Positions 9,061 through 37,007 of a DNA stretch of 37,007 nt are shown here, one piece after another. The notes below the pieces were generated by a model. That model searched no databases and was not told where the DNA came from. It was given only the letters and a program-made list of their open reading frames with translations. Every line of letters starts with the position of its first letter. The first letter of the stretch is position 1. A program made the position numbers and the translations under genes. Source of the stretch: Pseudomonas sp. GM78 (GTDB lineage Bacteria > Pseudomonadota > Gammaproteobacteria > Pseudomonadales > Pseudomonadaceae); assembly GCF_000282475.1 (NCBI RefSeq), contig NZ_AKJF01000096.1:1-37007 (forward strand). The letters are read 5' to 3'.

Positions 9061-10704
9061 ATGGCCAAAGCTGCCGATGTGGTTGTGCAATGCCTGGAAA
9101 GTGAAGGTGTCGAGTATGTATTCGGCATCCCCGGCGAGGAAAACCTCGACCTGCTTGAATCCTTGCGCAAGTCGACTATCAAGCTTGTGCTCACGCGTCA
9201 CGAGCAATCCGCCGGCTTCATGGCCGCCACTTACGGCCGCCTCACGGGTAAGACCGGCGTCAGCCTTTCGACCCTCGGCCCGGGTGCAACGAATCTGGTG
9301 ACGGCCAGCGCGTACGCCTATCTGGGCGGCATGCCCATGATGATGATCACAGGCCAGAAGCCGATCAAGAAGTCCAAGCAAGGCCGTTTTCAGATCATTG
9401 ACGTCTGCGGCATGATGGCGCCGATCACCAAGTACACCCACCAGTTCGCCTCGGCAGACAACATCCCGGCGCGGATGCGTGAAGCGTTTCGTCTCGCTGA
9501 AGAGGAGAAGCCCGGAGCCGTCCACCTGGAGTTGCCGGAAGATATCGCCGCCGAGCAAACCGATAGCATGCCGATGCCGCGGAGCCTGCACCGCCGGCCA
9601 TTGGCCGAGCACAAGGCTGTCGAGGCCGCTGTCGAGAAGTTGCAGAACGCGCGCAGTCCAATCCTGGTGATCGGCGCGGGTGCCAACCGCAAGATGACCG
9701 CCAAGGTGTTGAAGCAACTGATCGACGATACCGGCATTCCCTTTATTACCACCCAGATGGGCAAGGGCGTGGTGGATGAGCGTCACCCGCGTTTCCTCGG
9801 CAATGCCGCGCTGTCGTCGGGAGACTTCGTGCACCGCGCCGTCGAGGCCGCCGACCTGATCGTCAATATCGGCCACGATGTGATCGAGAAGCCGCCATTC
9901 TTCATGGTGCGTGGCGGCACTGAAGTCATCCACATCAACTTCCGCTCCGCTGAAGTCGACGCCGTGTATTTCCCGCAGATCGAAGTAATCGGTGATATCG
10001 CCAACGCCGTCTGGCAGATCGGCGAAGCGCTGAGCGATACCAGCCATTGGGATTTCACACGGTTGATGGCGATTCGTGATGCGAACGAAGCCCAGATTAT
10101 CGAGGGGGCGGACGACAACAGGTTCCCGGTTTACCCACAACGTCTGGTTGCCGACATTCGTCGGGTGTTGCCGTCCGAGGGCATCGTTGCCCTGGACAAT
10201 GGCATCTACAAGATCTGGTTTGCCCGCAACTACAAGGCCCACAAGCCCAACACCGTACTGCTGGACAACGCGCTGGCGACCATGGGGGCGGGTCTGCCTT
10301 CCGCGATGGCTGCACATTTGGTGTACCCGGATCGTCCGGTGATCTCCGTGTGCGGGGACGGCGGCTTCATGATGAACAGCCAGGAGCTGGAGACAGCGGT
10401 TCGCCTGAACATGAATTTGACCGTGGTGATCCTGCGGGACGACGGCTACGGCATGATCCGCTGGAAGCAGGCCAATATGGGCTTCACCGACTTCGGCCTG
10501 GATTACAGTAACCCCGATTTCGTGAAGTACGCCGAGGCCTATGGCGCCAATGGCCACCGCGTGGAGAGCGCCGAGGGTTTCCTGCCGCTGCTGGAGCACT
10601 GTGTGAAGACACCCGGTGTGCATGTGATCGACTGTCCTGTCGATTACAGCGAAAACGACCGCATCCTGAACATGGAGTTGCGCCAGCGTAGCGCTGCCAT
10701 TTGA
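9061..10704 (+). CDS. acetolactate synthase large-subunit-like, ThDP-dependent (AlsS-like)
   Basis: A 547-residue thiamine-diphosphate enzyme that should condense two pyruvates to 2-acetolactate plus CO2. The catalytic Glu of ThDP enzymes is Glu48 in LTRHEQSAGFMA. STLGPGATNLVTA follows, and the ThDP/Mg motif GDGGF is near residue 432 with an Asn a few residues on (MMNSQELETAV). The C-terminal region (DFVKYAEAYGANG, then CPVDYSEND) resembles the catabolic FAD-independent AlsS of Bacillus as I recall it. No regulatory small subunit (ilvH) and no acetolactate decarboxylase (alsD) is adjacent, so it is an orphan. Other ThDP decarboxylases of the same fold cannot be fully ruled out. AGGTGAG precedes the ATG. 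Confidence 0.88.
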   Translation: MAKAADVVVQCLESEGVEYVFGIPGEENLDLLESLRKSTIKLVLTRHEQSAGFMAATYGRLTGKTGVSLSTLGPGATNLVTASAYAYLGGMPMMMITGQKPIKKSKQGRFQIIDVCGMMAPITKYTHQFASADNIPARMREAFRLAEEEKPGAVHLELPEDIAAEQTDSMPMPRSLHRRPLAEHKAVEAAVEKLQNARSPILVIGAGANRKMTAKVLKQLIDDTGIPFITTQMGKGVVDERHPRFLGNAALSSGDFVHRAVEAADLIVNIGHDVIEKPPFFMVRGGTEVIHINFRSAEVDAVYFPQIEVIGDIANAVWQIGEALSDTSHWDFTRLMAIRDANEAQIIEGADDNRFPVYPQRLVADIRRVLPSEGIVALDNGIYKIWFARNYKAHKPNTVLLDNALATMGAGLPSAMAAHLVYPDRPVISVCGDGGFMMNSQELETAVRLNMNLTVVILRDDGYGMIRWKQANMGFTDFGLDYSNPDFVKYAEAYGANGHRVESAEGFLPLLEHCVKTPGVHVIDCPVDYSENDRILNMELRQRSAAI

Positions 10705-23857: not shown

Positions 23858-25366
23858 TCAGGCGACTTGTCGCATCGCCGGTTTAACGAGCGAATCCGTG
23901 CTCTTGCTGCGTGAATCATTGGGTCCGAACACCGCGCTCGATTCCGGGAACAGGCTCAGCAGCACCAGGTACACCACCGAGGCCAGGCCCAGGGTGACCG
24001 GCAGGCTGATGTCGATACCGCCGGCCATTTCGCCCAGTGGTCCGACGAATTGCCCCGGCAGGTTCACGAAGCACAGGCCGACGGCCGCGCTCGGGATCCA
24101 GGCGCCCAGGCCACGCCAGTTCCAGCCGTGGGTGAACCAGTAGCGGCCACCTTTCTCGCCGCGGGTGAACACTTGCAGGTCATCCGGGCAGTAGAAGCCG
24201 CGACGCACCAGCAGGCCGATGATCATGATGACCATCCACGGAGTGGTGCAGGTGATGATCAGTACGGCGAAGGTCGACACGCTCTGCACCAGGTTCGCCG
24301 CGAAGCGCCCGATGAAGATGAAGGCAATCGACATCACACCGATCAGCAGCGTGGCCTTGACCCGCGACAGCACCCGTGGGAACACGCTGGACATGTCCAG
24401 GCCGGTGCCGTACAGCGAAGTGGTGCCGGTGGACATGCCGCCGATCACCGCGATCAGGCACACCGGCAGGAAGAACCAGCTCGGCGATACCGCCAGCAGG
24501 CCGCCGACATAGTTGTTGGCCGCGATGTAGTCCGGTGCCTTGACCGCTACGATAGTGGCGGTGACGAGGCCGAACAGGAACGGAATCAGCGTGGCCAGTT
24601 GAGCTGCGATCACCGAAACCATGATCCGGCCTTTCGGCGTTTCACGCGGGATGTAGCGCGACCAGTCGCCGAGGAACGCACCGAAGGAGATCGGGTTGCT
24701 CATGGCGACCAGCGCAGCGCCAATGAAAGCGGCCCAGAAACCGGCCTGGCCCATGGCCACAGTGCCGGCGTACTGGCTGTCGAACGCCGGTGCAAACGCG
24801 AAGATGCCCAGCAGGAACAACAGGCTGGCCGCCCACACCGCGATGCGGTTGACCCACAGCATGAAGCGGAAACCGTAGATGCACACCGTCAACACCAGCA
24901 GCGCGAACAAACCGTAGGCCAGGCCCAGGGTCAGGTCGGTTTCCGGCAGGTCGATCAGGCGCTTGGCGCCGCCTACCAGTGCGTCGCCCGAACTCCAGAC
25001 GGAGAGCGAGAAGAACGCGATGGCGGTCAGCAGCGACAGGAAGGAACCGACGATGCGCCCGTGCACACCGAAGTGCGCGCCGGAAGACACGGCGTTGTTG
25101 GTGCCGTTGATCGGCCCGAACAGGCCCATCGGCGCGAGGATCAATGCACCAAGCACCACACCCAGCACAATCGCCCAGACGCCGGCCTGGAAAGACAGGC
25201 CGAACAGTACCGGGAAACTGCCGAGTACGGCGGTTGCAAAGGTGTTGGCGCCACCGAAGATCAAGCGAAACAGATCGCTGGGTCGAGCGGTGCGCTCATT
25301 GTCCGGGATCTGTTCGACCCCGTTTGTTTCGATGCTAAGGCTGTTTTCGTTGTTTTTGTTATTCAT
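23858..25366 (-). CDS. NCS1-family purine/cytosine permease-like transporter, gbu-linked
   Basis: A 502-residue inner-membrane transporter with about 12 helices. NCS1-type blocks include the N-terminal PSDLFRLIFGGANTFATAVLG, GLFGPINGTNNAVSSGAHFG, and SNPISFGAFLGDWSRYIPRE in the middle (the conserved Asp-Trp-Ser-Arg-Tyr stretch of NCS1 proteins). NCS1 members move nucleobases, hydantoins or thiamine with H+ or Na+. Its place, 55 nt downstream of the NTF2-like gene and in line with gbuA, matches PA1419 and suggests a role in guanidino-compound uptake. Substrate is inferred from context only. Confidence 0.92.
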   Translation of the reverse strand: MNNKNNENSLSIETNGVEQIPDNERTARPSDLFRLIFGGANTFATAVLGSFPVLFGLSFQAGVWAIVLGVVLGALILAPMGLFGPINGTNNAVSSGAHFGVHGRIVGSFLSLLTAIAFFSLSVWSSGDALVGGAKRLIDLPETDLTLGLAYGLFALLVLTVCIYGFRFMLWVNRIAVWAASLLFLLGIFAFAPAFDSQYAGTVAMGQAGFWAAFIGAALVAMSNPISFGAFLGDWSRYIPRETPKGRIMVSVIAAQLATLIPFLFGLVTATIVAVKAPDYIAANNYVGGLLAVSPSWFFLPVCLIAVIGGMSTGTTSLYGTGLDMSSVFPRVLSRVKATLLIGVMSIAFIFIGRFAANLVQSVSTFAVLIITCTTPWMVIMIIGLLVRRGFYCPDDLQVFTRGEKGGRYWFTHGWNWRGLGAWIPSAAVGLCFVNLPGQFVGPLGEMAGGIDISLPVTLGLASVVYLVLLSLFPESSAVFGPNDSRSKSTDSLVKPAMRQVA

Positions 25367-25853: not shown

Positions 25854-26804
25854 TCAGCGATGGACTACGCCAGGCAGTACGCAGAGCATTTCGTACAGCA
25901 GGTTGGCGGCCAGCAGCGAGGTGTTGCCGGTGGTGTCGTAAGCGGGCGAGACTTCTACCAGATCGCAACCGACCAGGTCCAGGCCTTGGCAGCCACGCAC
26001 GATCTCGATTGCCTGAATGGTCGTCAGGCCACCGATTTCCGGGGTGCCGGTGCCAGGTGCCCAGGCCGGATCGATACCGTCGATGTCGAAGCTCAGGTAC
26101 ACCGGGCCGCCGCCGACTTTCTCGCGCACTTCGGCCATCAGGGGTGCCAGGGACTTGTGCCAGCACTCTTCGGCCTGAACCACACGGAAGCCCTGGTTGC
26201 GGCTCCAGTTGAAGTCGTCAGCGGTGTAGCCCTGGGCGCGCAGGCCGATCTGGACCACACGGTCCGGGTCGATCAGGCCTTCTTCGACGGCGCGACGGAA
26301 GGTGGTGCCGTGGGCGATTTTCTCGCCGAACATGTGATCGTTCACATCGGCGTGGGCGTCGATGTGCACCAGGCCGACCTTGCCGTGTTTTTTATGGATG
26401 GCACGCAGGATCGGCAGGGTGATGGTGTGGTCGCCACCCAGAGTCAGGGGAATCACATCGTGTTCGAGGATGTTGTCGTAGGATTCTTCGATGATCCGTA
26501 CGGCATCCAGCAGGTTGAAGGTGTTGATCGCCACGTCGCCGATATCGGCAACCGACAACGAGTCAAACGGCGCAGCGCCGGTGGCCATGTTGTACGGGCG
26601 GATCATGACCGATTCAGCGCGGATTTCACGAGGCCCGAAACGGGTGCCAGGGCGCAGGGAAGTACCGATGTCCAGCGGCACGCCGACAAAAGCGGCGTCC
26701 AGACCTGCAGCGGTCGGTACATGGGGGAGTCGCATCATGGTGGCGATGCCGCCGAAGCGCGGCATTTCGTTGCCGCCCAGTGGTTGGTGAAGAATCTTGT
26801 CCAC
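25854..26804 (-). CDS. gbuA: guanidinobutyrase (ureohydrolase family)
   Basis: A 316-residue ureohydrolase that should convert 4-guanidinobutyrate to GABA and urea. The two-Mn site ligands are all present: His126 (GGDHTIT), Asp149, His151 and Asp153 (HIDAHADVND), Asp240 and Asp242 (SFDIDGIDP). The sequence nearly repeats P. aeruginosa GbuA as I remember it (DKILHQPLGGNEMPRFGGI at the start and CDLVEVSPAYDTTGNTS near the end), so it is assigned to GbuA rather than agmatinase SpeB. Start is a GTG at 26804 with GAGG 8 nt upstream. It is the first gene of a leftward operon and divergent from gbuR. In PAO1 it is induced by 4-guanidinobutyrate through GbuR. Confidence 0.95.
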   Translation of the reverse strand: MDKILHQPLGGNEMPRFGGIATMMRLPHVPTAAGLDAAFVGVPLDIGTSLRPGTRFGPREIRAESVMIRPYNMATGAAPFDSLSVADIGDVAINTFNLLDAVRIIEESYDNILEHDVIPLTLGGDHTITLPILRAIHKKHGKVGLVHIDAHADVNDHMFGEKIAHGTTFRRAVEEGLIDPDRVVQIGLRAQGYTADDFNWSRNQGFRVVQAEECWHKSLAPLMAEVREKVGGGPVYLSFDIDGIDPAWAPGTGTPEIGGLTTIQAIEIVRGCQGLDLVGCDLVEVSPAYDTTGNTSLLAANLLYEMLCVLPGVVHR

Positions 26805-28549: not shown

Positions 28550-29914
28550 TTAGCGCTCGCGCATCGCCTCCGTCCGCGCCTTGAGCACCGGTTTAAGCAG
28601 ATAATCCAGCACCGTCTTCTCCCCGGTAATGATATCCACCGTCGCCACCATCCCCGGAATGATCAGCAGTGGTTTTGCGTCCCCGCCGAGGTGGTTTTTA
28701 TCGGTGCGCACCTGGATCAGGTAAAAGCTGTTGCCCTTGTCGTCGGTGATGGTGTCCGCGCCGATCAATTCCAGCTTGGCGCTCAGGCCGCCGTAGATCG
28801 TGTAATCGTAGGCACTGAACTTGACCATGGCTTTCTGGCCCGGATGCAGGAACGCCACGTCCTGTGGCCGCACCTTGGCCTCGATCAGCAGGTTGTCTTC
28901 CAGCGGCACGATTTCCACCATGTCGCTGCCCGGCTGGACCACGCCGCCGATGGTGTTGACCTTCAACAGCTTGATGATGCCCTTGACCGGCGAGGCCACG
29001 GTGGTGCGGGTCACGCGGTCGTCGATGGCAATGCTCGAGGCTGTGATTTTCGACAGGTCGGTGCGTTTCTCATTCAGCTCCTTCGCCGCGTCCGAACGGA
29101 ACGACTGCTCGGACTCGTCGATCTTGCTCCTGATCTCGGCAATCGCCGATTCCGCCCGGGGAATGGCCAGGGTGGTGGCGTTCAGCGAACCACGGATTTC
29201 CACCGCGCTGCGCTTGAGCCGCAGGATCTCAACCGGCGATACGGCACCGGTCTTGACCAGTGGCTCGGACATCGCCATCTCCTGGTTGACCAGCGCCAGG
29301 CTGGAGGCGTATTGCCCGGCTTTCGAGCGAAACTCTGCCAGTTCCTGGGTTTTTTGCCGCAGTTGTTCGGTCAGCGTGCGTTGTTCGCTGGCCAGTCGAC
29401 GTTGCCGCTGTTCGTACAGCGAGCGTTCGTCTTCGGCGACTTGCGGCGCCTTGGCGATCACCTCTTCCGACAGCTTGAACGGCCGGCCTTCGGCTTCTGC
29501 CGACAGGCGTTCGACCTGCGCGGTCAGCGCGTAGCGATCGACTTCGCTTTCGCCCTTGTTCGACAGGTAGCGTGTGTCATCCAGGCGCAGCAAGGTGTCG
29601 CCCTTGTTCACCATTTGCCCTTCGCGCACGAAGATCTCGGTGACGATACCGCCCTCAAGGTTCTGGATCACCTGGACCTTGCTCGACGGAATCGCCTTGC
29701 CTTCGCCCATGGTGACTTCCTGCAGCACCGCGAACTTGGCCCAGACCAAGGCGCTGATCAGCAACGCGGCGGCCAGCCACACGGTGATCCGCGACCAGCG
29801 CGGGGAGTCCTGCAACGCGGCGCCGGCCGTTTCCGGCATGAACTCGGCTTCGGCACTTTTGCCGAAGCTGTCGAAGTAGCCACGTGCTTTCGAAGCATCC
29901 GATGAAGCAGACAT
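28550..29914 (-). CDS. type I secretion periplasmic adaptor (HlyD family, LapC/MapC-type)
   Basis: A 454-residue membrane fusion protein that links the LapB-type ABC transporter to the LapE-type outer-membrane channel. A cytoplasmic N-terminus is followed by a single transmembrane helix (about 43-64, ITVWLAAALLISALVWAKF). A lipoyl-like half lies at 80-112 (VQVIQNLEGGIVTEIFVREG, GDTLLRLDDT). A long alpha-helical hairpin spans about 125-290, and a second lipoyl half and beta-barrel follow (AFASPVKGIIKLLKV-type block at about 305, IVPLEDNLLIEAKVRPQDVAF). It ends with TGEKTVLDYLLKPVLKARTEAM, typical of HlyD-family T1SS proteins. The ATG at 29914 has AGGAG 6 nt upstream. Last gene of the lapE-B-C operon, 9 nt after lapB. 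Confidence 0.93.
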   Translation of the reverse strand: MSASSDASKARGYFDSFGKSAEAEFMPETAGAALQDSPRWSRITVWLAAALLISALVWAKFAVLQEVTMGEGKAIPSSKVQVIQNLEGGIVTEIFVREGQMVNKGDTLLRLDDTRYLSNKGESEVDRYALTAQVERLSAEAEGRPFKLSEEVIAKAPQVAEDERSLYEQRQRRLASEQRTLTEQLRQKTQELAEFRSKAGQYASSLALVNQEMAMSEPLVKTGAVSPVEILRLKRSAVEIRGSLNATTLAIPRAESAIAEIRSKIDESEQSFRSDAAKELNEKRTDLSKITASSIAIDDRVTRTTVASPVKGIIKLLKVNTIGGVVQPGSDMVEIVPLEDNLLIEAKVRPQDVAFLHPGQKAMVKFSAYDYTIYGGLSAKLELIGADTITDDKGNSFYLIQVRTDKNHLGGDAKPLLIIPGMVATVDIITGEKTVLDYLLKPVLKARTEAMRER

Positions 29915-29923
29915 AGGCAACTC

Positions 29924-32083
29924 CTAGACGGCCGCAGAGCCGACACGGCCCTTGCGCAGTGCATCGATGACCGCTTCTTTCGGGCCGTCGGCGACGATCC
30001 GCCCGTTGTCCAGCACCACCAGGCGATCGACCAGACTGAGCATCGAGGTGCGATGGGTCACCAGCAGCAGGGTCTTGCCCTGGACCCAGGTGTGGAGTTT
30101 TTGCCGCAAGGCGTCTTCGCTGCTGTTGTCCATGGCACTGGTGGGTTCGTCGAGCAGCATGATCGGCGGGTCGAGCAACAAGGCGCGGGCCAGCAGCACC
30201 GCTTGGCGTTGACCACCGGACAGCAACTGCCCGCGCTCGCCAACCGGACGGTCGAAGCCTTGCGGGTGTTGTCGGGCCAGTTCGGTGACGCCGGTCAGTT
30301 CGGCCACTTCAAGCATGCGCGAGTCGCTGATGTAGCGCGCGCCCAGGGTCAGGTTGTCACGCAGGCTGCCGGCCAGCAGCGGCAGGTCATGGGCGACGTA
30401 ACCGATTTGGTGTCGCAGGTCGGCGACGTCCAGTTGGCGCAGGTCCAGGCCATCGAGCAGCAATTGGCCTTGCGCCGGTTCGTAGAACCCCATCACCAGG
30501 CGCGCCAGGGTGCTTTTGCCGGAGCCGCTGCGACCGATGATGCCGATCCGTTCGCCGGGCTTCACGCTGAAGCTGACGTTGGCCAGCGCCGGGGCGTTCT
30601 GGCCGTTGTAGTGGAAGGTCACGCCGACCATATCCAGGGCGCCTTGCAGTTGCGTGCGCTCCAGCGGCCGTTGTCTGGCGTCGCGCTCCTGGGGCAGGGA
30701 CATCAGCGCGTCGGTGCTTTTCATGGTCAGTTGCGCTTGCTGGTAGCGGGTGATCAGGCCGGCGATTTGCCCCAGCGGCGCCAGGACCCGGCTGCCGAGC
30801 ATGTAGGTCGCCACCAGCGCGCCGACGCTGAGGTTGCCGGCGATGATGCTGTAGACCCCGGCCACGATGGTCGCCATGCCTGAAAACTGCTGGATGAACA
30901 GCGTGCCATTGGTGGCCAGCGCCGAGAGGTTACGCGCGTGGCTGTCGAGGCGGGTGAGGGCGCCGTGGGTGCTTTCCCATTTGTGCTGGCGCTCGCTTTC
31001 GGCGCTGCAGGCCTTGAGGGTTTCCAGGCCACCAAGGGTTTCGATCAGCAGGGCCTGGCGTTCGGCGCCCAGGCTCAGGCTTTTCTGCACGGTGTCGCGC
31101 AAGCGCGCCTGGATGATCATGGCGAAAATGATCGTGATCGGAAACGCCAGCACTGGAATCACCACCAGCCAGCCGCCCAGCAGGCCGATCACGACCAGCA
31201 TCAACAGGGCAAAGGGCAGGTCGATCAGGCTGGTGAGGGTCACGGCGGTGAGAAACTCGCGCAGGCCCTGGAAATCGTGAATGCTCTGGGCAAAACCACC
31301 GATGGTCGCAGGCTTGGCTTTCATCGCCATGCCGGTGATGCGTTCGAACAGGGTCGCCGAGAGAATCACGTCGGTCTTCTTGCCGGCGGTGTCCAGCAAA
31401 TGCGCGCGCACCACCCGCAGTACCAGTTCGAACCCGGTGCCGATCAGCAGGCCGATGGACAGCACCCACAAGGTCGAGGTGGCCTGGTTCGGCACCACGC
31501 GGTCGTAGGTCTGCATCACGAACAGCGGCACCATCAGCCCCAGCAGGTTGATCAGGAAGCTCGCCAGGATCGCATCGCTGTACAACCATTTCGACAGCTT
31601 CAGGGTGTCGCGAAACCACGCATGCACCCGTGGCACCAGCGGTGATCGAAGGTCTTCGAGTTCATGCCGTGGCCGGGCGAACAACGCCTGGCCACTGTAA
31701 TGCCCGGCAAGCTCCTGGACAGTGGTCCATTGTTCGCCGCCATCGGCTTCGCTGGGCAGGATCAGCACCCGGTCATCCTCGCCAAAGCGGCGCAGCACCG
31801 TGGTACGGCCGTTGTTGAGCAACAGCAGCACCGGCAAGTTCAGCGCAGAGATGTCCTTGAGGTCGCGGCGCAGCAGGCGTGCCTGCAATCCCGCCCGGGC
31901 CGCCGCGCGGGGCAGCAGGTCCAGGCTCAGGCGTTGGTGTGCCATAGGCAGCCCGGCACTGAGGCTGGCGCGACTGACCGTCGCGCCGTGGAGTTTGCAG
32001 AGGATCAACAGACCGTCCAGGAGCGGGTCATCGAAGCTCAGGCGTGGATCGACACCGGTGTTGGCGGTTTCCATGCTGGTCAC
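29924..32083 (-). CDS. type I secretion ABC transporter (LapB/MapB-type)
   Basis: A 719-residue ABC exporter. The N-terminal peptidase-C39-like domain (about 15-145) lacks the catalytic Cys/His and is therefore a docking domain, as in LapB and HlyB. The transmembrane domain (about 165-450; YSDAILASFLINLLGLMVPL, AIISIIAGNLSVGALVATYM-type helices) is followed by the nucleotide-binding domain. That domain has Walker A GRSGSGKST (about 514-522), signature LSGGQ (about 622) and Walker B MLLDEPTSAMD (about 644), followed by LLVTHRTSML with the switch His. It exports large RTX adhesins. The start is a GTG with GGAG 8 nt upstream; an ATG three codons later is possible. It lies 17 nt after the lapE-type gene. 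Confidence 0.93.
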   Translation of the reverse strand: MTSMETANTGVDPRLSFDDPLLDGLLILCKLHGATVSRASLSAGLPMAHQRLSLDLLPRAAARAGLQARLLRRDLKDISALNLPVLLLLNNGRTTVLRRFGEDDRVLILPSEADGGEQWTTVQELAGHYSGQALFARPRHELEDLRSPLVPRVHAWFRDTLKLSKWLYSDAILASFLINLLGLMVPLFVMQTYDRVVPNQATSTLWVLSIGLLIGTGFELVLRVVRAHLLDTAGKKTDVILSATLFERITGMAMKAKPATIGGFAQSIHDFQGLREFLTAVTLTSLIDLPFALLMLVVIGLLGGWLVVIPVLAFPITIIFAMIIQARLRDTVQKSLSLGAERQALLIETLGGLETLKACSAESERQHKWESTHGALTRLDSHARNLSALATNGTLFIQQFSGMATIVAGVYSIIAGNLSVGALVATYMLGSRVLAPLGQIAGLITRYQQAQLTMKSTDALMSLPQERDARQRPLERTQLQGALDMVGVTFHYNGQNAPALANVSFSVKPGERIGIIGRSGSGKSTLARLVMGFYEPAQGQLLLDGLDLRQLDVADLRHQIGYVAHDLPLLAGSLRDNLTLGARYISDSRMLEVAELTGVTELARQHPQGFDRPVGERGQLLSGGQRQAVLLARALLLDPPIMLLDEPTSAMDNSSEDALRQKLHTWVQGKTLLLVTHRTSMLSLVDRLVVLDNGRIVADGPKEAVIDALRKGRVGSAAV

Positions 32084-32100
32084 ATTGATCGCTCCAGGTA

Positions 32101-33459
32101 CTACTTCAGTTCAGGCAGGCGAGCTTCGCTTTTCACTTCGGCCTGGGCGATGGCGTCGGCGGGCAGCACCACGCGTTGCTTGCTCAGCAACTGACCCATG
32201 TTCGCCAGCACCCGGTACATCGAAAATTCCTCGGTGTAGCGTACTTCGGTGTAGCGGCGGTTGGCGTTGTAAAGCTCGTTTTCGCTGTCCAGCAGGTCGA
32301 GCAGGGTCCGTTGGCCGAGGCCGAACTGATCCTGATACGCCACGCGTACGCGTCGGCTGGTTTCGGCGTACTCGCGAGCGGTCGGCGTTTGTTTCTTGGC
32401 GTTGACCATCGCGTTCCAGGCCAGGTGGATGTTTTCGTTGAGCTGGCGCAGGGCGTTGTTGCGGATGTCCATCGCCTGATTGATCTTGTGGGCATCGGAC
32501 TGCAGGCGCGCCTTGTCGCTGCCGCCGCGGAACAGGTTGTAGTTCATCACCACGCCCACCCGCCATTCGTTGTCATGGCCTTCTTCACCGGCGATGTTGT
32601 TGTTTGCGCCCACCGCGGCTTCAGCGTCGAAGCGTGGGTAGAACGGCGACTTGGCGACTTCGTACTGGCTCTCGGCCGATTGCACGTCGGCCTGGGCGGA
32701 TTTCAGGTACGGGTTGTTGTCCACCATGCTTTGCTGGGCATCGGTCAGGGAGGCCGGCAGCTCGCCACGGATCGACGACGGGGCTTCGAGTTCATCAGGC
32801 AGGCGCCCGACGACGGCGGCGAAGTTCGACTCGGCGTCGGCCAGGTCGACTTCGGCGGTGTCGAGGTTGTTCTCCGCCAACGCCCGACGGGCAGTGGACT
32901 GGTCGGCGTCGGCGTTGCTGCCGATCCCACGCTGGGTGCGCAGGCCGATCTGGTCGTTGACCCGCAAGTGCGCTTGCAGGTTGTTTTTGGCCAGCGTCAC
33001 CAGTTCGCGGCGCTTGAGCACTTCGAGGTAGACCTCGATGGTGCGCAGGGCCAGGTCTTGGGCGGTACCCTGGGCGTAATACGCCCGGGAGTTGACGACG
33101 CCCTTGGTGCGCTCGACTTCGTTGGCGGTGTTGAAGCCATCGAAGAGCATCTGCCGCAGGCGCAGTTCTGACTGGGTGTAATTGAGAATTTCGGTATGGT
33201 GATTGCCCAGCGCCCGAGTGTTGGTGTTGTCGCTGTACCCGCGCCCGTACGCGGCATTGAGGTCCACCGATGGATAAAAGCCCCCCTTGGCGACCTTCAC
33301 GTCTTCGTCAGCCGACAGACGGCTGTCCACCCGCGATGCGAGCTCCGGGTGGGTGGCGATGGTGCTCTGGATTGCTTCGGTCAGTGACATGGCATACGCC
33401 TGGGTACTGCAGGCAATTGCCAGCAGAACCGCGCTGCACAGGGGGTTTAAAAGACGCAT
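32101..33459 (-). CDS. type I secretion outer-membrane channel (TolC family, LapE/MapE-type)
   Basis: A 452-residue TolC-family protein. The signal peptide is MRLLNPLCSAVLLAIACSTQAYA. Two repeated outer-membrane factor halves follow (about 30-235 and 240-430), each with TolC blocks such as LTEAIQSTIATHPELASRVD, RQMLFDGFNTANEV, NGFR/MNYNLFRGGSDKARL and RTLLDLLDSENELYNANRRY. It forms the trimeric exit duct for the divergent adhesin and, if retention works as in LapA, also anchors it. It is the first gene of the lapE-B-C operon; the ATG at 33459 has a GGGAGA ribosome site. Promoter region shared with the adhesin gene. Confidence 0.94.
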   Translation of the reverse strand: MRLLNPLCSAVLLAIACSTQAYAMSLTEAIQSTIATHPELASRVDSRLSADEDVKVAKGGFYPSVDLNAAYGRGYSDNTNTRALGNHHTEILNYTQSELRLRQMLFDGFNTANEVERTKGVVNSRAYYAQGTAQDLALRTIEVYLEVLKRRELVTLAKNNLQAHLRVNDQIGLRTQRGIGSNADADQSTARRALAENNLDTAEVDLADAESNFAAVVGRLPDELEAPSSIRGELPASLTDAQQSMVDNNPYLKSAQADVQSAESQYEVAKSPFYPRFDAEAAVGANNNIAGEEGHDNEWRVGVVMNYNLFRGGSDKARLQSDAHKINQAMDIRNNALRQLNENIHLAWNAMVNAKKQTPTAREYAETSRRVRVAYQDQFGLGQRTLLDLLDSENELYNANRRYTEVRYTEEFSMYRVLANMGQLLSKQRVVLPADAIAQAEVKSEARLPELK

Positions 33460-33515
33460 GGTTCATCTCCCTGAATCCTAATGGTGCTTTATGAGTCGCC
33501 AATTATTTGACGACA

Positions 33516-33521
33516 TTTATA
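33516..33521 (-). promoter_or_regulatory. candidate -10 element of the lapE-B-C operon
   Basis: On the minus strand TATAAA lies about 57 nt before the ATG at 33459, with TTACAA 18 nt further upstream as a weak -35. Composition supports a promoter here, but the -35 match is poor. Confidence 0.35.
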
Positions 33522-33952
33522 GGTAAAACCGTTTCATGCTTGTAACATCAGAGCTAAGAACATTTTGAGGCGAACCTAAGAAGTTTTTCTCATAAGGCTT
33601 ATGCCAAAAAAAACTTATGTACTCTGCAAAATCCAGCACATTGTTCACTGCGAAAGCCCTTGATTTCTGCGCCTTATGGCGCTCATCAGAGCTTGAGGAA
33701 AGGTCAAGTCCACTTATCGACAAAGAGCGGAGAAGTGCTGGAGGGGAGGGATGCGGCGCAGACTGAGGTGACGGTTTTTTGTCACCAAGGTGATTCAGGA
33801 CTGTTACGCAACGCTGGCGGATGACGTTGTTCTCGACTGGTAGCCCAATGCCATTGATTGCAAAGGGTTTATCCAGGTCGCGGGCACTAGCCGCAAGCAA
33901 TACGCTGGACGAGATCGACGTCCGGGCAACGGCTTACTTGGGGTAATCCGTG

Positions 33953-33981
33953 TTGACCGGCAGGCGATTTGGCCAGTTAAT
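33953..33981 (+). promoter_or_regulatory. candidate sigma-70 promoter of the adhesin gene
   Basis: TTGACC (33953-33958) is separated by 17 nt from GTTAAT (33976-33981). Transcription would start near 33988, leaving a leader of about 70 nt before the ATG at 34057. The -35 is a 5/6 match; the -10 matches at four positions. Confidence 0.35.
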
Positions 33982-34056
33982 CCGCTTGAGCCCATGGGCA
34001 TGTTCTCCGCATTCAGACAGGGTGCCGACAAAGCGTTGGCAGCGGAGGGAATGCAC

Positions 34057-37007
34057 ATGGCTACGCTCATCGGTATCGTCAGCAAGGTTATCGGTCAGGT
34101 CTTCGCGGTGGCGGGTGACGGCACCCGTCGAGTGCTGATCGAGGGGGACCGGTTGTTTGCCGGCGATCAACTGGTGACCGGGGCCGAAGGCGCGGTGGCG
34201 GTGCATCTGCAAAATGGCCAGGAACTGACGCTGGGGCGCGGCAGTAGCCTGCAAATGACCGCCCAGTTGCTGGCGCAGACGTCGCCCCATGTGGAGACGG
34301 TTGAAGCGACGACTCCGAGCCAGGCGCAGTTGACCGATGTCGAGCAACTGCAAAAAGCCATTGCCGCCGGTGACGACCCGACCCAGACCGCTGAAGCCAC
34401 GGCGGCCGGCCCGGGTTCGACCGGCCCTGCCGAGGGAGCACAGGGTGGGGGCCACAGTTTCGTCTTGCTCGAGGAAGTGGGGGGGCGGGTCGAGCCGACC
34501 ATTGGCTTCCCCACCGCCGGGTTCAACGGCATTCCGGAGTTCCCGCTTGCGCGGCACGAGGGTGATCGAAACCCCGACGACGGTGCGGCTGCACCGCTGA
34601 TTACGCCGCCAGTGGTCACGCTGCCCGAAGTCCCACCACCGGACGGCACTCCGCCTGTTGTCTTGCCGCCTGTCTTGCCTCCTGTAGTCACGCCACCTGA
34701 AGTTTTGCCACCAACAGTCACGCCACCCGAGAACAATCCGGTCACCCTCGATGGGCTGTCGGTGGCGGGCGGTGAGCTGACCGTCAAGGAAGCCAACCTG
34801 CCTGACGGTTCGGCAAGCAATCCCGCCGCGCTGACCCAGAACGGCACCTTCACCGTCACCGCGCTTGACGGGCTGACCAGCCTCACCATCGGCGGGATCA
34901 GCGTGATCAGCGCTGGCGTGGCCAGCGGGTTCCCACAGTCGATCACCACGCCGCTGGGCAGCACCCTGACCATCACCGGGTACAACCCGACCACGGGCGT
35001 GGTGAGTTACAGCTACACCCTCAACGACAACGAAAACCATTCGAGCGGTGACGGCACCCATCTCAGCGAACACTTCACCGTGGTTGCCGGTGACAGCAAC
35101 GGCGACACCGCCACCGGTTCCCTGGACGTCACCATCCTCGACGACATGCCCAAGGCGTACGATGACAGCAACCCCGACACCGCCTCGGAAACCCGGCTCA
35201 CCCTCGAAGGCAACGTCCTGGGCAATGACGTGCAAGGCGCCGACCGTATAACAACCGGTCCTGCAAGTGGCCCGATCACCCCCGGCACCTTCATCGGCAC
35301 CTACGGCACCCTGGTGCTCCATGCCAATGGCACCTACACCTACACCCTCAATCCCGGCGATGCCGACTTCAAGGCCTTGCACGCCGGTGGCAACGGCACC
35401 GAGACGTTCACCTATACCCTGACCGACGCCGACGGCGACAGCAGCACCGCGCACCTGGTGCTGAACGTGTACAACAACGATGACGGGGTGACGATCGGCG
35501 GCCTCGACGTCGAAGGCGGCGAACTCACCGTCTACGAGAAAAACCTCATGTACGGCAGCGACCCTGACGCCCCGGCGCTGACCCAGCACGGGACCTTCAC
35601 CGTCAACGCCCCGGACGGCCTGCAGAGCCTGAGCATTTCCGGCGTCGCGATCATCAGCGGTGGCGTGGTGCAGCCCTTGCCGATCTCCGGCAGTACCTGG
35701 CTGGGCAGCACCCTGACTGTCACCGGCTATGACCCGGCCACCGGCGTGGTGAGCTACAGCTACACCCTGAACTACACCGAGACCCACCCCAACGCCGACG
35801 GCGCCAACAGCATCAGCGAGAACTTCGAAGTCATCGCCATCGATGCCGACGGCAGCGAGGCGCGTGGGGAAATCAACGTCAAGGTCGTCGACGACCTGCC
35901 GACCGCCAAACCCGATGCAACGTCAGTGGTCGAGGGCGGCACCGTCACCGGCAACGTACTGTGGAACGACGTCGGCGGTGCCGATGGTTCCGGCGGCGGC
36001 GTGGTTGGCGTGCGCGCAGGCTCCGACACCTCGACCCCGGTGCATGGCGGCCTGAACAGCCAGATCAACGGCACCTACGGTTACCTGACGCTGGATGCGG
36101 CGGGCAACGCCGTGTACCACAGCTACCCGAACTCGGTGAGTGGCCCGGGCGCGAGCGACGTGTTCACCTATACCCTACGCGACGCCGACGGTGACGAAAG
36201 CACCACCACCGTCACTATCGACGTACATAACAGTTGCTTTGTGGCGACCAGCGACCACGACGTGACCGTCTACGAAAAAGCCCTGGACCTGCACCAGGAC
36301 GGCCAGGACCTGGCCCCCGGCAGCGTGAATGGCAGCCAGCCGTGCAGCCCGGCCGAAACCGCCAGCGGCACCCTGGTCGACGCGGTCCATGGCGGCAGTG
36401 GCGCCATCACCTACAGCCTGCTCAGCAATGCCATCGGCACCTACGGCCAGCTGTTGCTGCACCCTGATGGCAGCTACACCTACACCCTGACTTCGCCGGC
36501 CAGCACGATGCCGCAGGCCAACGATGGCGCCAACACCCTGCACGAAAGCTTCACCTACCAGGCCACCGATGCCCAAGGCAACATAGCCACCAGCACCATC
36601 GTGATCAACATCGTCGATGACGTGCCCACCGCTACCCCTGATATAGCCTCGGTGGGAGAGGGCGGCTACATCGGCGGCAATGTGCTGTGGAACGACAACG
36701 CGGGTGCCGATGGCCAGTTCGCCGGTGGTGGCGTGGTCGGTGTACGCGCCGGCGGCGACACCTCGACCCCTGTGCATGGCGGCTTGAACAGCCAGATCAA
36801 CGGCACCTACGGCTACCTGACGCTGGATGCGGCGGGCAATGCCGTGTACCACAGCTACCCGAACTCGGTTAGCGGCCCGGGTGCGAGCGACGTGTTCACC
36901 TACACCCTGCGCGATGGTGACGGTGACGAAAGCACCACCACCATCACGATCGACGTGCACAACAGCTGCCTGGTCGCGGCCAGCGACGACGTGACCGTCT
37001 ACGAAAA
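34057..37007 (+). CDS. giant LapA/MapA-type RTX adhesin with N-terminal retention module (C-terminus outside window)
   Basis: The first 983 residues of a much larger surface adhesin; the frame is open to the window edge. The start ATG at 34057 has GGAGGG 7 nt upstream; an ATG at 34051 is too close to it. Residues 1-150 form the retention module known from LapA (MATLIGIVSKVIGQVFAVAG, FAGDQLVTGAEGAV, then HSFVLLEEVGGRVEPTIGF). Within it TAAG at 115-118 is the site that LapG-type periplasmic proteases cut between the two Ala. A proline-rich linker (about 189-227) follows, then Ig/VCBS-like extracellular repeats with Asp-Gly-Asp calcium-type turns (TDADGD, RDADGD). Cysteines occur in the repeats (NSC, QPCS), which is unusual. 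LapG and LapD are not in the window. Likely MapA rather than LapA, from gene context. Confidence 0.9.
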   Translation, partial: MATLIGIVSKVIGQVFAVAGDGTRRVLIEGDRLFAGDQLVTGAEGAVAVHLQNGQELTLGRGSSLQMTAQLLAQTSPHVETVEATTPSQAQLTDVEQLQKAIAAGDDPTQTAEATAAGPGSTGPAEGAQGGGHSFVLLEEVGGRVEPTIGFPTAGFNGIPEFPLARHEGDRNPDDGAAAPLITPPVVTLPEVPPPDGTPPVVLPPVLPPVVTPPEVLPPTVTPPENNPVTLDGLSVAGGELTVKEANLPDGSASNPAALTQNGTFTVTALDGLTSLTIGGISVISAGVASGFPQSITTPLGSTLTITGYNPTTGVVSYSYTLNDNENHSSGDGTHLSEHFTVVAGDSNGDTATGSLDVTILDDMPKAYDDSNPDTASETRLTLEGNVLGNDVQGADRITTGPASGPITPGTFIGTYGTLVLHANGTYTYTLNPGDADFKALHAGGNGTETFTYTLTDADGDSSTAHLVLNVYNNDDGVTIGGLDVEGGELTVYEKNLMYGSDPDAPALTQHGTFTVNAPDGLQSLSISGVAIISGGVVQPLPISGSTWLGSTLTVTGYDPATGVVSYSYTLNYTETHPNADGANSISENFEVIAIDADGSEARGEINVKVVDDLPTAKPDATSVVEGGTVTGNVLWNDVGGADGSGGGVVGVRAGSDTSTPVHGGLNSQINGTYGYLTLDAAGNAVYHSYPNSVSGPGASDVFTYTLRDADGDESTTTVTIDVHNSCFVATSDHDVTVYEKALDLHQDGQDLAPGSVNGSQPCSPAETASGTLVDAVHGGSGAITYSLLSNAIGTYGQLLLHPDGSYTYTLTSPASTMPQANDGANTLHESFTYQATDAQGNIATSTIVINIVDDVPTATPDIASVGEGGYIGGNVLWNDNAGADGQFAGGGVVGVRAGGDTSTPVHGGLNSQINGTYGYLTLDAAGNAVYHSYPNSVSGPGASDVFTYTLRDGDGDESTTTITIDVHNSCLVAASDDVTVYE
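34741..35145 (+). repeat. adhesin repeat type A, copy 1
   Basis: In-frame unit of about 135 residues (VTLDGLSVAGGELTVKEANL … TILDD). It matches copy 2 at 35488 with a 747-nt offset; the copies share LTQ-GTFTV, DGL-SL-I, GSTLT-TGY-P-TGVVSYSYTLN. They are diverged at the DNA level, suggesting an older duplication. Confidence 0.75.
35488..35895 (+). repeat. adhesin repeat type A, copy 2
   Basis: Second copy of the 135-residue unit (VTIGGLDVEGGELTVYEKNL … KVVDD), in the same frame as copy 1. Confidence 0.75.
35926..36279 (+). repeat. adhesin repeat type B, copy 1
   Basis: In-frame unit of about 118 residues (VVEGGTVTGNVLWNDVGG … DVTVYE). It is nearly identical in DNA to copy 2 over its second half, for example from CAGATCAACGGCACCTACGG onward, with a 726-732 nt offset. 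Confidence 0.85.
36652..37007 (+). repeat. adhesin repeat type B, copy 2 (cut by window edge)
   Basis: Second copy of the type B unit (VGEGGYIGGNVLWNDNAG … DVTVYE). It has an insertion of two codons near AGQFAGGG relative to copy 1. More copies probably follow beyond the window. Confidence 0.85.

Follow-up and report, generated by a model that had tools for sequence, protein, structure and literature searches.

The window, which is the whole stretch of DNA analysed here, is contig C96 in its entirety (37,007 bases) of a draft Pseudomonas genome that comprises 7.29 Mb in 235 contigs. Its right-hand part contains an exporter operon and, divergent from it, the beginning of an adhesin gene, with the following features:

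28550..29920, minus strand: mapC-type HlyD-family periplasmic adaptor (TIGR01843, 421 bits, cut-off 209)
29924..32083, minus strand: mapB-type T1SS ABC transporter, LssB type (TIGR03375, 941 bits, cut-off 693)
32101..33459, minus strand: mapE-type TolC-family outer-membrane protein (TIGR01844, 293 bits, cut-off 225)
33460..34056, no strand: divergent region, mapE to mapA (from its place between the divergent genes)
34057..37007, plus strand: MapA-type adhesin, N-terminal part (no stop before the contig end; frame open from ATG 33994)
34069..34524, plus strand: LapA-type retention module (NF033682 retention_LapA, residues 26-177, 145 bits, cut-off 50)
34399..34410, plus strand: predicted LapG cleavage motif TAAG after a DP motif (published motif and LapA site)
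34741..37007, plus strand: Ig/cadherin-like repeats (family scan)

The original prediction of a TolC/ABC/HlyD operon that faces an adhesin with a LapA-type retention module was confirmed by these curated family cut-offs and by the 145-bit match to NF033682. Within the operon, 3 bases separate the adaptor and ABC transporter genes and 17 bases separate the ABC transporter and TolC genes, and the ABC transporter features an N-terminal C39-like domain at residues 25-140 (PF03412, 25.3 bits against a cut-off of 22). Beside the exporter lie an agmatinase-type arginase-family gene (25854-26804), previously called gbu and named agmatinase in NCBIfam, and a permease of the NCS1/cytosine-purine type (23858-25366); a 95% identical piece of the agmatinase-type gene is also found near mapC in the relative L111. 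Elsewhere, positions 9061-10704 encode a PRK08322-type acetolactate synthase large subunit (926 bits, cut-off 509).

The adhesin frame is open from 33994 to 37005 on the plus strand, and its likely start is the ATG at 34057, which has GGAGG immediately 5' of it. Residues 23-140 of the retention module match the solved chain 5ix9, titled 'Antifreeze protein'. Family scans placed T1SS-143, VCBS, Big_9 and cadherin-like repeats after the module, and the BapA/Bap/LapF model NF045619 scored 174 bits, just below its cut-off of 180. The LapG cleavage consensus is given as [T/A/P]AAG following a DP motif (PMC13090378), and P. fluorescens LapA is cut between alanines 108 and 109 (PMC3032545). Among MapA-type retention modules, TAAG was present in 46 of 47 rows, some of which represent the same strain twice, and PAAG was present in the remaining one (L139). 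In P. putida ASAD, the closest relative found, the unbroken MapA is 89.5% identical to the window adhesin over 984 positions and spans 1,903 residues from stop to stop. The term 'giant' previously applied to the adhesin was therefore overstated, and judged from the ASAD homologue the window-type MapA is a medium-sized adhesin.

A search of the same genome with the retention module returned two places only at E<=0.001, the window and contig C90, whose modules are 53% identical. C90 encodes a second complete TolC/ABC/HlyD set that faces an adhesin start, and contig C176 contains lapG, lapD and an adhesin 3' end. PF20579 LapA domains are present in both of these adhesin pieces, with vWA and RTX regions added on C176, and we take the pieces to be the two ends of lapA, unjoined in the assembly. 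Between the window exporter and the C90 set, identity is only 60% for the adaptor, 59% for the ABC transporter and 51% for the TolC protein. LapG (PF06035) and LapD (PF16448) were each found in two places in the genome, C176 and a further contig, C32. Compared with the solved P. fluorescens LapG 4u65, the C176 protein scored 394.8 bits and the C32 protein 280.1 bits. The idea that the window adhesin is lapA itself draws on a like gene set, the divergent layout and a lapD-lapG pair downstream, but it is the other locus that has the PF20579 repeats and the LapG nearer to 4u65, and with that second locus in hand the idea is refuted to the point of being scarcely tenable. Because the separate lapA locus has its own exporter, lapD and lapG, the window adhesin is, as far as sequence comparison goes, a second, MapA-type adhesin besides LapA; here the MapA of strain Pf0-1, which we take to be Pfl01_1463, was compared by description only. 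The original prediction of a MapA-like second adhesin with a private exporter thus holds, as the exporters are 51-60% identical and the search for other lapA, lapD and lapG genes located a separate PF20579 LapA locus on C90 and C176 together with lapD and lapG. Further RTX- or repeat-type frames, at 34-50% identity, occur on contigs C35 (open frame of 3478 aa), C199, C206, C56 and C37, and none of them contains a match to the retention module at E<=0.001.

On C32, the gene order is recQ, lapG2, lapD2 and then, convergent with these, the 3' end of an RTX adhesin gene truncated by the contig boundary. The encoded proteins are 56% (LapD2) and 62% (LapG2) identical to those of the first pair. The last repeat of the window adhesin recurs on C32 beside lapD2-lapG2 with 88% amino acid identity, and outside C96 and C32 this repeat was found only on C37, with 39% identity. 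In P. putida ASAD (NZ_MNAH01000003.1, locus L021), recQ-lapG2-lapD2-mapA-mapE-mapB lie unbroken on one contig, with identities to our genome of 97% for recQ, 89% for lapG2, 93% for lapD2, 98% for mapE and 95% for the start of mapB, the remainder of which lies beyond the fetched sequence. Overall the ASAD locus is 82-98% identical, with shifted alignments of the repeats at 58-91%. C32 is collinear with the ASAD locus over 9.8 kb, the window aligns from the opposite side, and approximately 1.07 kb of the ASAD mapA lies in the gap between them. We assigned the names recQ, tauD and ats-type from the sequence itself.

The join between C96 and C32 is drawn from this synteny with ASAD; no read or overlap joins the contigs, and no exact match of at least 15 bases links the ends of C96, C32, C90 and C176. 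One could argue that C32 carries the end of some third adhesin and that the link between the two contigs is an accident of repeats, as the contig ends lack a direct overlap and the genome has further RTX-type frames. However, the genome contains only two retention modules at E<=0.001, two LapG genes and two LapD genes, and C96 and C32 are both collinear to one unbroken locus, which makes a third adhesin very improbable. We conclude that the C32 adhesin end is very probably the 3' end of the window adhesin and that this second adhesin very probably comes with a release switch of its own, made up of a protease and a sensor, although mapA is incompletely assembled and the missing part could hold a lesion. 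The expectation of a retention switch run from another locus is not supported, since a second lapD-lapG pair lies on C32 directly beyond the very probable 3' end of the same gene. The original prediction had also stated that the adhesin would be lapA if lapD and lapG lay directly downstream and the genome had no other LapA-like gene; the first of these is probably the case, and the second is not, as the lapA locus exists. The assembled MapA pieces on C96 and C32, from which approximately 1.1 kb of the gene is missing, contain neither a vWA domain nor PF20579 LapA repeats. Among ten complete MapA proteins of relatives, vWA was present in six and absent in four (L021, which is ASAD, L054, L134 and L129).

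LapD2 comprises LapD_MoxY_N, HAMP and GGDEF/EAL domains, with KVL replacing the EAL motif and with a GWxQ loop. It retains D72, GWxQ with W125, I187, F222, S229, E262, KVL, R450, F566 and A602, and the roles of the residues checked are described in PMC3032553 and PMC4359373. Across all 100 aligned LapG rows (PF06035, BTLCP), the catalytic C column and the columns that we assign to H and D do not vary. From these conserved residues, the second LapD/LapG switch looks functional. Our main reading, to which we assign a probability of about 0.82, is that the right end of the window carries the 5' half of a second Lap system of MapA type, that the other half of the locus lies on C32 and that the switch operates by homology to Lap; insulation from LapD1/LapG1 lies outside this figure. 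From the genes, their order on each contig, the domains, the conserved residues, the synteny with the relative and the paralogue clades, all of which were observed directly, we infer the join of C96 to C32, the export and cleavage of the adhesin, its control by c-di-GMP and the pairing of each protease with its adhesin. The locus would consist of divergent mapEBC and mapA in the window and, on C32, of the mapA RTX 3' end, convergent lapD2, lapG2 and then recQ. By homology to Lap, MapA would be exported through MapB-MapC-MapE, and the retention module would anchor it in MapE. At low c-di-GMP, LapG2 would cut at TAAG and MapA would be released. At high c-di-GMP, the ligand would be bound by LapD2 via its KVL-type degenerate EAL domain, and c-di-GMP-bound LapD2 would sequester LapG2 via the GWxQ loop, such that MapA would remain on the surface.

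We also investigated how the pair is distributed across 149 genomes of the genus, our own included. A MapC-type adaptor was called at 700 bits or more and 74% identity or more, a cut set at a visible step in the scores, and a LapG2-type protease was called when the alignment reached the last query residue with at least 300 bits; the match lists for both extend below these threshold bands. The adaptor was present in 97 of the 149 genomes and LapG2 in 42, with both in 41, which leaves 56 genomes with the adaptor and without LapG2 and a single genome (G075, 87% complete) with LapG2 and without the adaptor. Of these 41 genomes, 25 carry the two genes on a single contig in the expected order, separated by 13-34 kb; four carry them on a single contig in a different arrangement, and in 12, our own genome among them, they are on different contigs. 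The last two groups count against linkage. LapG2 is the sole LapG at E<=1e-20 in 11 of its 42 genomes, and seven of these 11 have it linked to mapC (one of the seven at 9% contamination and another at 88% completeness). When 80 lapG loci were compared, 36 matched LapG2 better than LapG1 and 44 matched LapG1. The fetched stretches of the LapG2 loci contained recQ in 34 of 36 cases and a MapA-type 3' end in 25 of 36, and neither was found in any of the 44 LapG1 loci. Nine named LapG1 genomes had a MapA-type module in seven cases (73-81%) and LapG2 in none, and genomes with LapG2 include ASAD, P. chlororaphis PCL1601 and Stutzerimonas stutzeri 24a75.

These distributions bear on whether MapA is ruled by no other LapD/LapG than that of the lapA locus, as described for Pf0-1 and as first proposed for this DNA, with lapD2-lapG2 serving something else. 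That 56 of the 97 sampled MapC genomes are without LapG2 indicates that a MapA system can exist without it. In our genome, however, such control is very unlikely, as lapD2-lapG2 abuts mapA in the closest relative ASAD, 25 of the 41 genomes with both genes have them in linked order and the functional residues are kept.

Several relatives depart from the common arrangement. In L022, L023, L024 and L046 (from 12.7 kb onward), lapD2 is followed by genes other than mapA, which counts against a fixed association, and a MapA-type module is located elsewhere in the genome. The possibility that MapA had been lost from these and other lapG2 strains without an adjoining mapA proved wrong, as a MapA-type module was found in 10 of 10 genomes searched, namely eight such strains together with L021 and L054. 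Three of these ten, G151 (L024), G152 (L046) and G157 (L021, ASAD), have a MapA-type retention module only, with no LapA-type module found; ASAD nevertheless encodes LapG1. At least three LapG2-bearing relatives have no complete MapA frame in the fetched stretch, which also counts against the association. The longest frame is only 748-1208 aa in L121 (G131), L123 (G058), L029 (AL03) and L122 (G046), and in L122 the MapA 3' end is absent from the fetched stretch; the adhesin in these four may be broken or misassembled. L115 has, beyond the main one, a second fragment at 2170-2445 that resembles the MapA 3' end (61%).

Phylogenetically, LapG2 (55 rows) and LapG1 (45 rows) form the two sides of one branch, with a support of 98 by a quick method. 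In a MapB tree of 20 loci with the pair and 20 without it, presence of the pair changes at least four times, two of which are forced by well-supported branches. When this tree was rooted on our own LapB, the earliest-branching lineages, Stutzerimonas among them, were found to carry lapD2-lapG2, a pattern that favours an early origin of the pair followed by repeated loss; the root is one distant outgroup row, and the count of changes does not separate gain from loss. Neither lapG2 nor lapD2 was found in the 20 fetched loci without LapG2. The adhesin 3' end was present in 19 of these 20, the exception being L108, which was omitted as its contig ends inside mapA. In nine of the 19, recQ lies within 1.2-4.1 kb after the adhesin, and in the other ten it lies beyond the stretch. 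No relics of lapD or lapG were detected in the 19 gaps after mapA, where three tblastn matches with E values of 0.32-0.77 were taken as chance. Small frames between our own pair and recQ, one beginning MSFAEQLTRLQ and one of 131 residues, recur in the gaps without LapG2, which indicates that the difference between the loci is the pair itself. Across 20 sets, Mantel correlations were 0.94 for MapB with LapG2 and 0.96 for MapB with LapD2, with 0 of 5000 permutations as high; this result shows co-inheritance, which shared species history would give likewise. In L051 and L065 (P. chlororaphis PCL1601 and Pseudomonas sp. NFIX28), LapG2 sits on a long branch of 0.55 and LapD2 is 73-75% identical to our own, and the open frame of the PCL1601 MapA-type module is only 937 aa; selection on these two is possibly relaxed or shifted.

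We next considered whether the two pairs form one circuit or two, using P. fluorescens numbering for LapG (own LapG1 + 20) and defining a clade-separating position as one at least 85% conserved within each clade. By this definition, 10 positions in LapG and 51 in LapD separate the clades. The two pairs may act as one shared pool, in which each LapG cuts both adhesins and each LapD binds both LapGs, such that the second pair adds dose and not a channel. Consistent with this possibility, none of the 10 LapG positions is among the four that cross-link to LapD (PMC4359373): Y176, V205 and Y206 are invariant, and A169 is kept in 44 of the 45 LapG1 rows and 52 of the 55 LapG2 rows. The surroundings of TAAG in MapA are alike whether or not the locus has LapG2, and no altered cleavage motif was seen where MapA is accompanied by a LapG of its own, which is evidence against tuned cleavage; nothing shows LapG2 tuned to MapA. 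The literature also favours a shared pool, in that LapD and LapG are stated to govern both adhesins, LapA and MapA, in P. fluorescens (PMC13090378) and partners from P. fluorescens and L. pneumophila form mixed LapD-LapG complexes (PMC4359373). Against it, LapG divides into two clades with the near-fixed changes Y108F, E110D and D113R (47 of 55) in or beside the calcium loop, R168Q and S188N differ beside interface or catalytic positions, the former next to a cross-link site, and 41 of the 42 LapG2 genomes have a MapC-type adaptor. Differences in calcium binding near the active site may tune substrate specificity, as suggested for the LapG proteins of P. fluorescens and L. pneumophila (PMC4359373). 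Weighing both sides, we give the shared pool slightly less than even odds and judge a separate channel to be no more likely than a shared or partly shared pool. More tentatively, and at odds nearer one in three, the cell could run two complete, partly separate release circuits, LapD1-LapG1-LapA and LapD2-LapG2-MapA, in which the calcium-loop changes would set LapG2 apart in substrate choice or calcium response and the old second switch would have been lost repeatedly, with MapA then under LapD1/LapG1, as described for P. fluorescens. Where a cell also has a second-clade LapG that often sits at mapA, as do 41 of the 97 sampled genomes with the MapC-type adaptor, release of MapA and LapA could differ in the level of c-di-GMP or calcium. 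If true, the presence or absence of lapD2-lapG2 at a conserved locus would be a natural experiment on the evolution of protease-receptor specificity.

In the available accounts, MapA is presented as a second adhesin that shares the LapD/LapG of LapA (PMC13090378). In the available text of PMC7716237, PMC10850567, PMC6890996, PMC4359373, PMC3032545, PMC3032553, PMC13090378 and PMC9180339, a LapD-LapG pair belonging to MapA is undescribed. The original MapA paper, which is outside this scope, may already mention one, and any novelty of MapA having its own switch is correspondingly a modest claim. Like the window adhesin with its probable C32 end, MapA of P. fluorescens Pf0-1 and P. ogarae F113 is an additional RTX adhesin that has a retention module, Ig/cadherin-like repeats and a private T1SS. 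The Map and Lap proteins of F113 are 45.8-61% identical (PMC7716237), comparable with the 51-60% of the exporters here. In contrast, lapD-lapG very probably lies directly downstream here, whereas the main text of the F113 paper names lapDG in the lap cluster only (PMC7716237), and the only dedicated part that the available text of PMC13090378 assigns to MapA is its secretion system; Pf0-1 and F113 were compared by description. F113 MapA is said to have a vWA domain (PMC7716237), and none is present in the assembled parts of MapA here or in that of ASAD. With the Lap system of P. fluorescens, the locus shares the same six-gene logic, the cleavage motif and the receptor residues; unlike it, the window-type locus is paralogous, lies next to recQ, is 51-62% identical and has no PF20579 repeats in its assembled parts. 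In Vibrio cholerae, too, one cell has two large adhesins, FrhA and CraA, that answer to LapD/LapG and c-di-GMP; a single LapD/LapG is responsible for both of them (PMC6890996), whereas the genome described here encodes two pairs.
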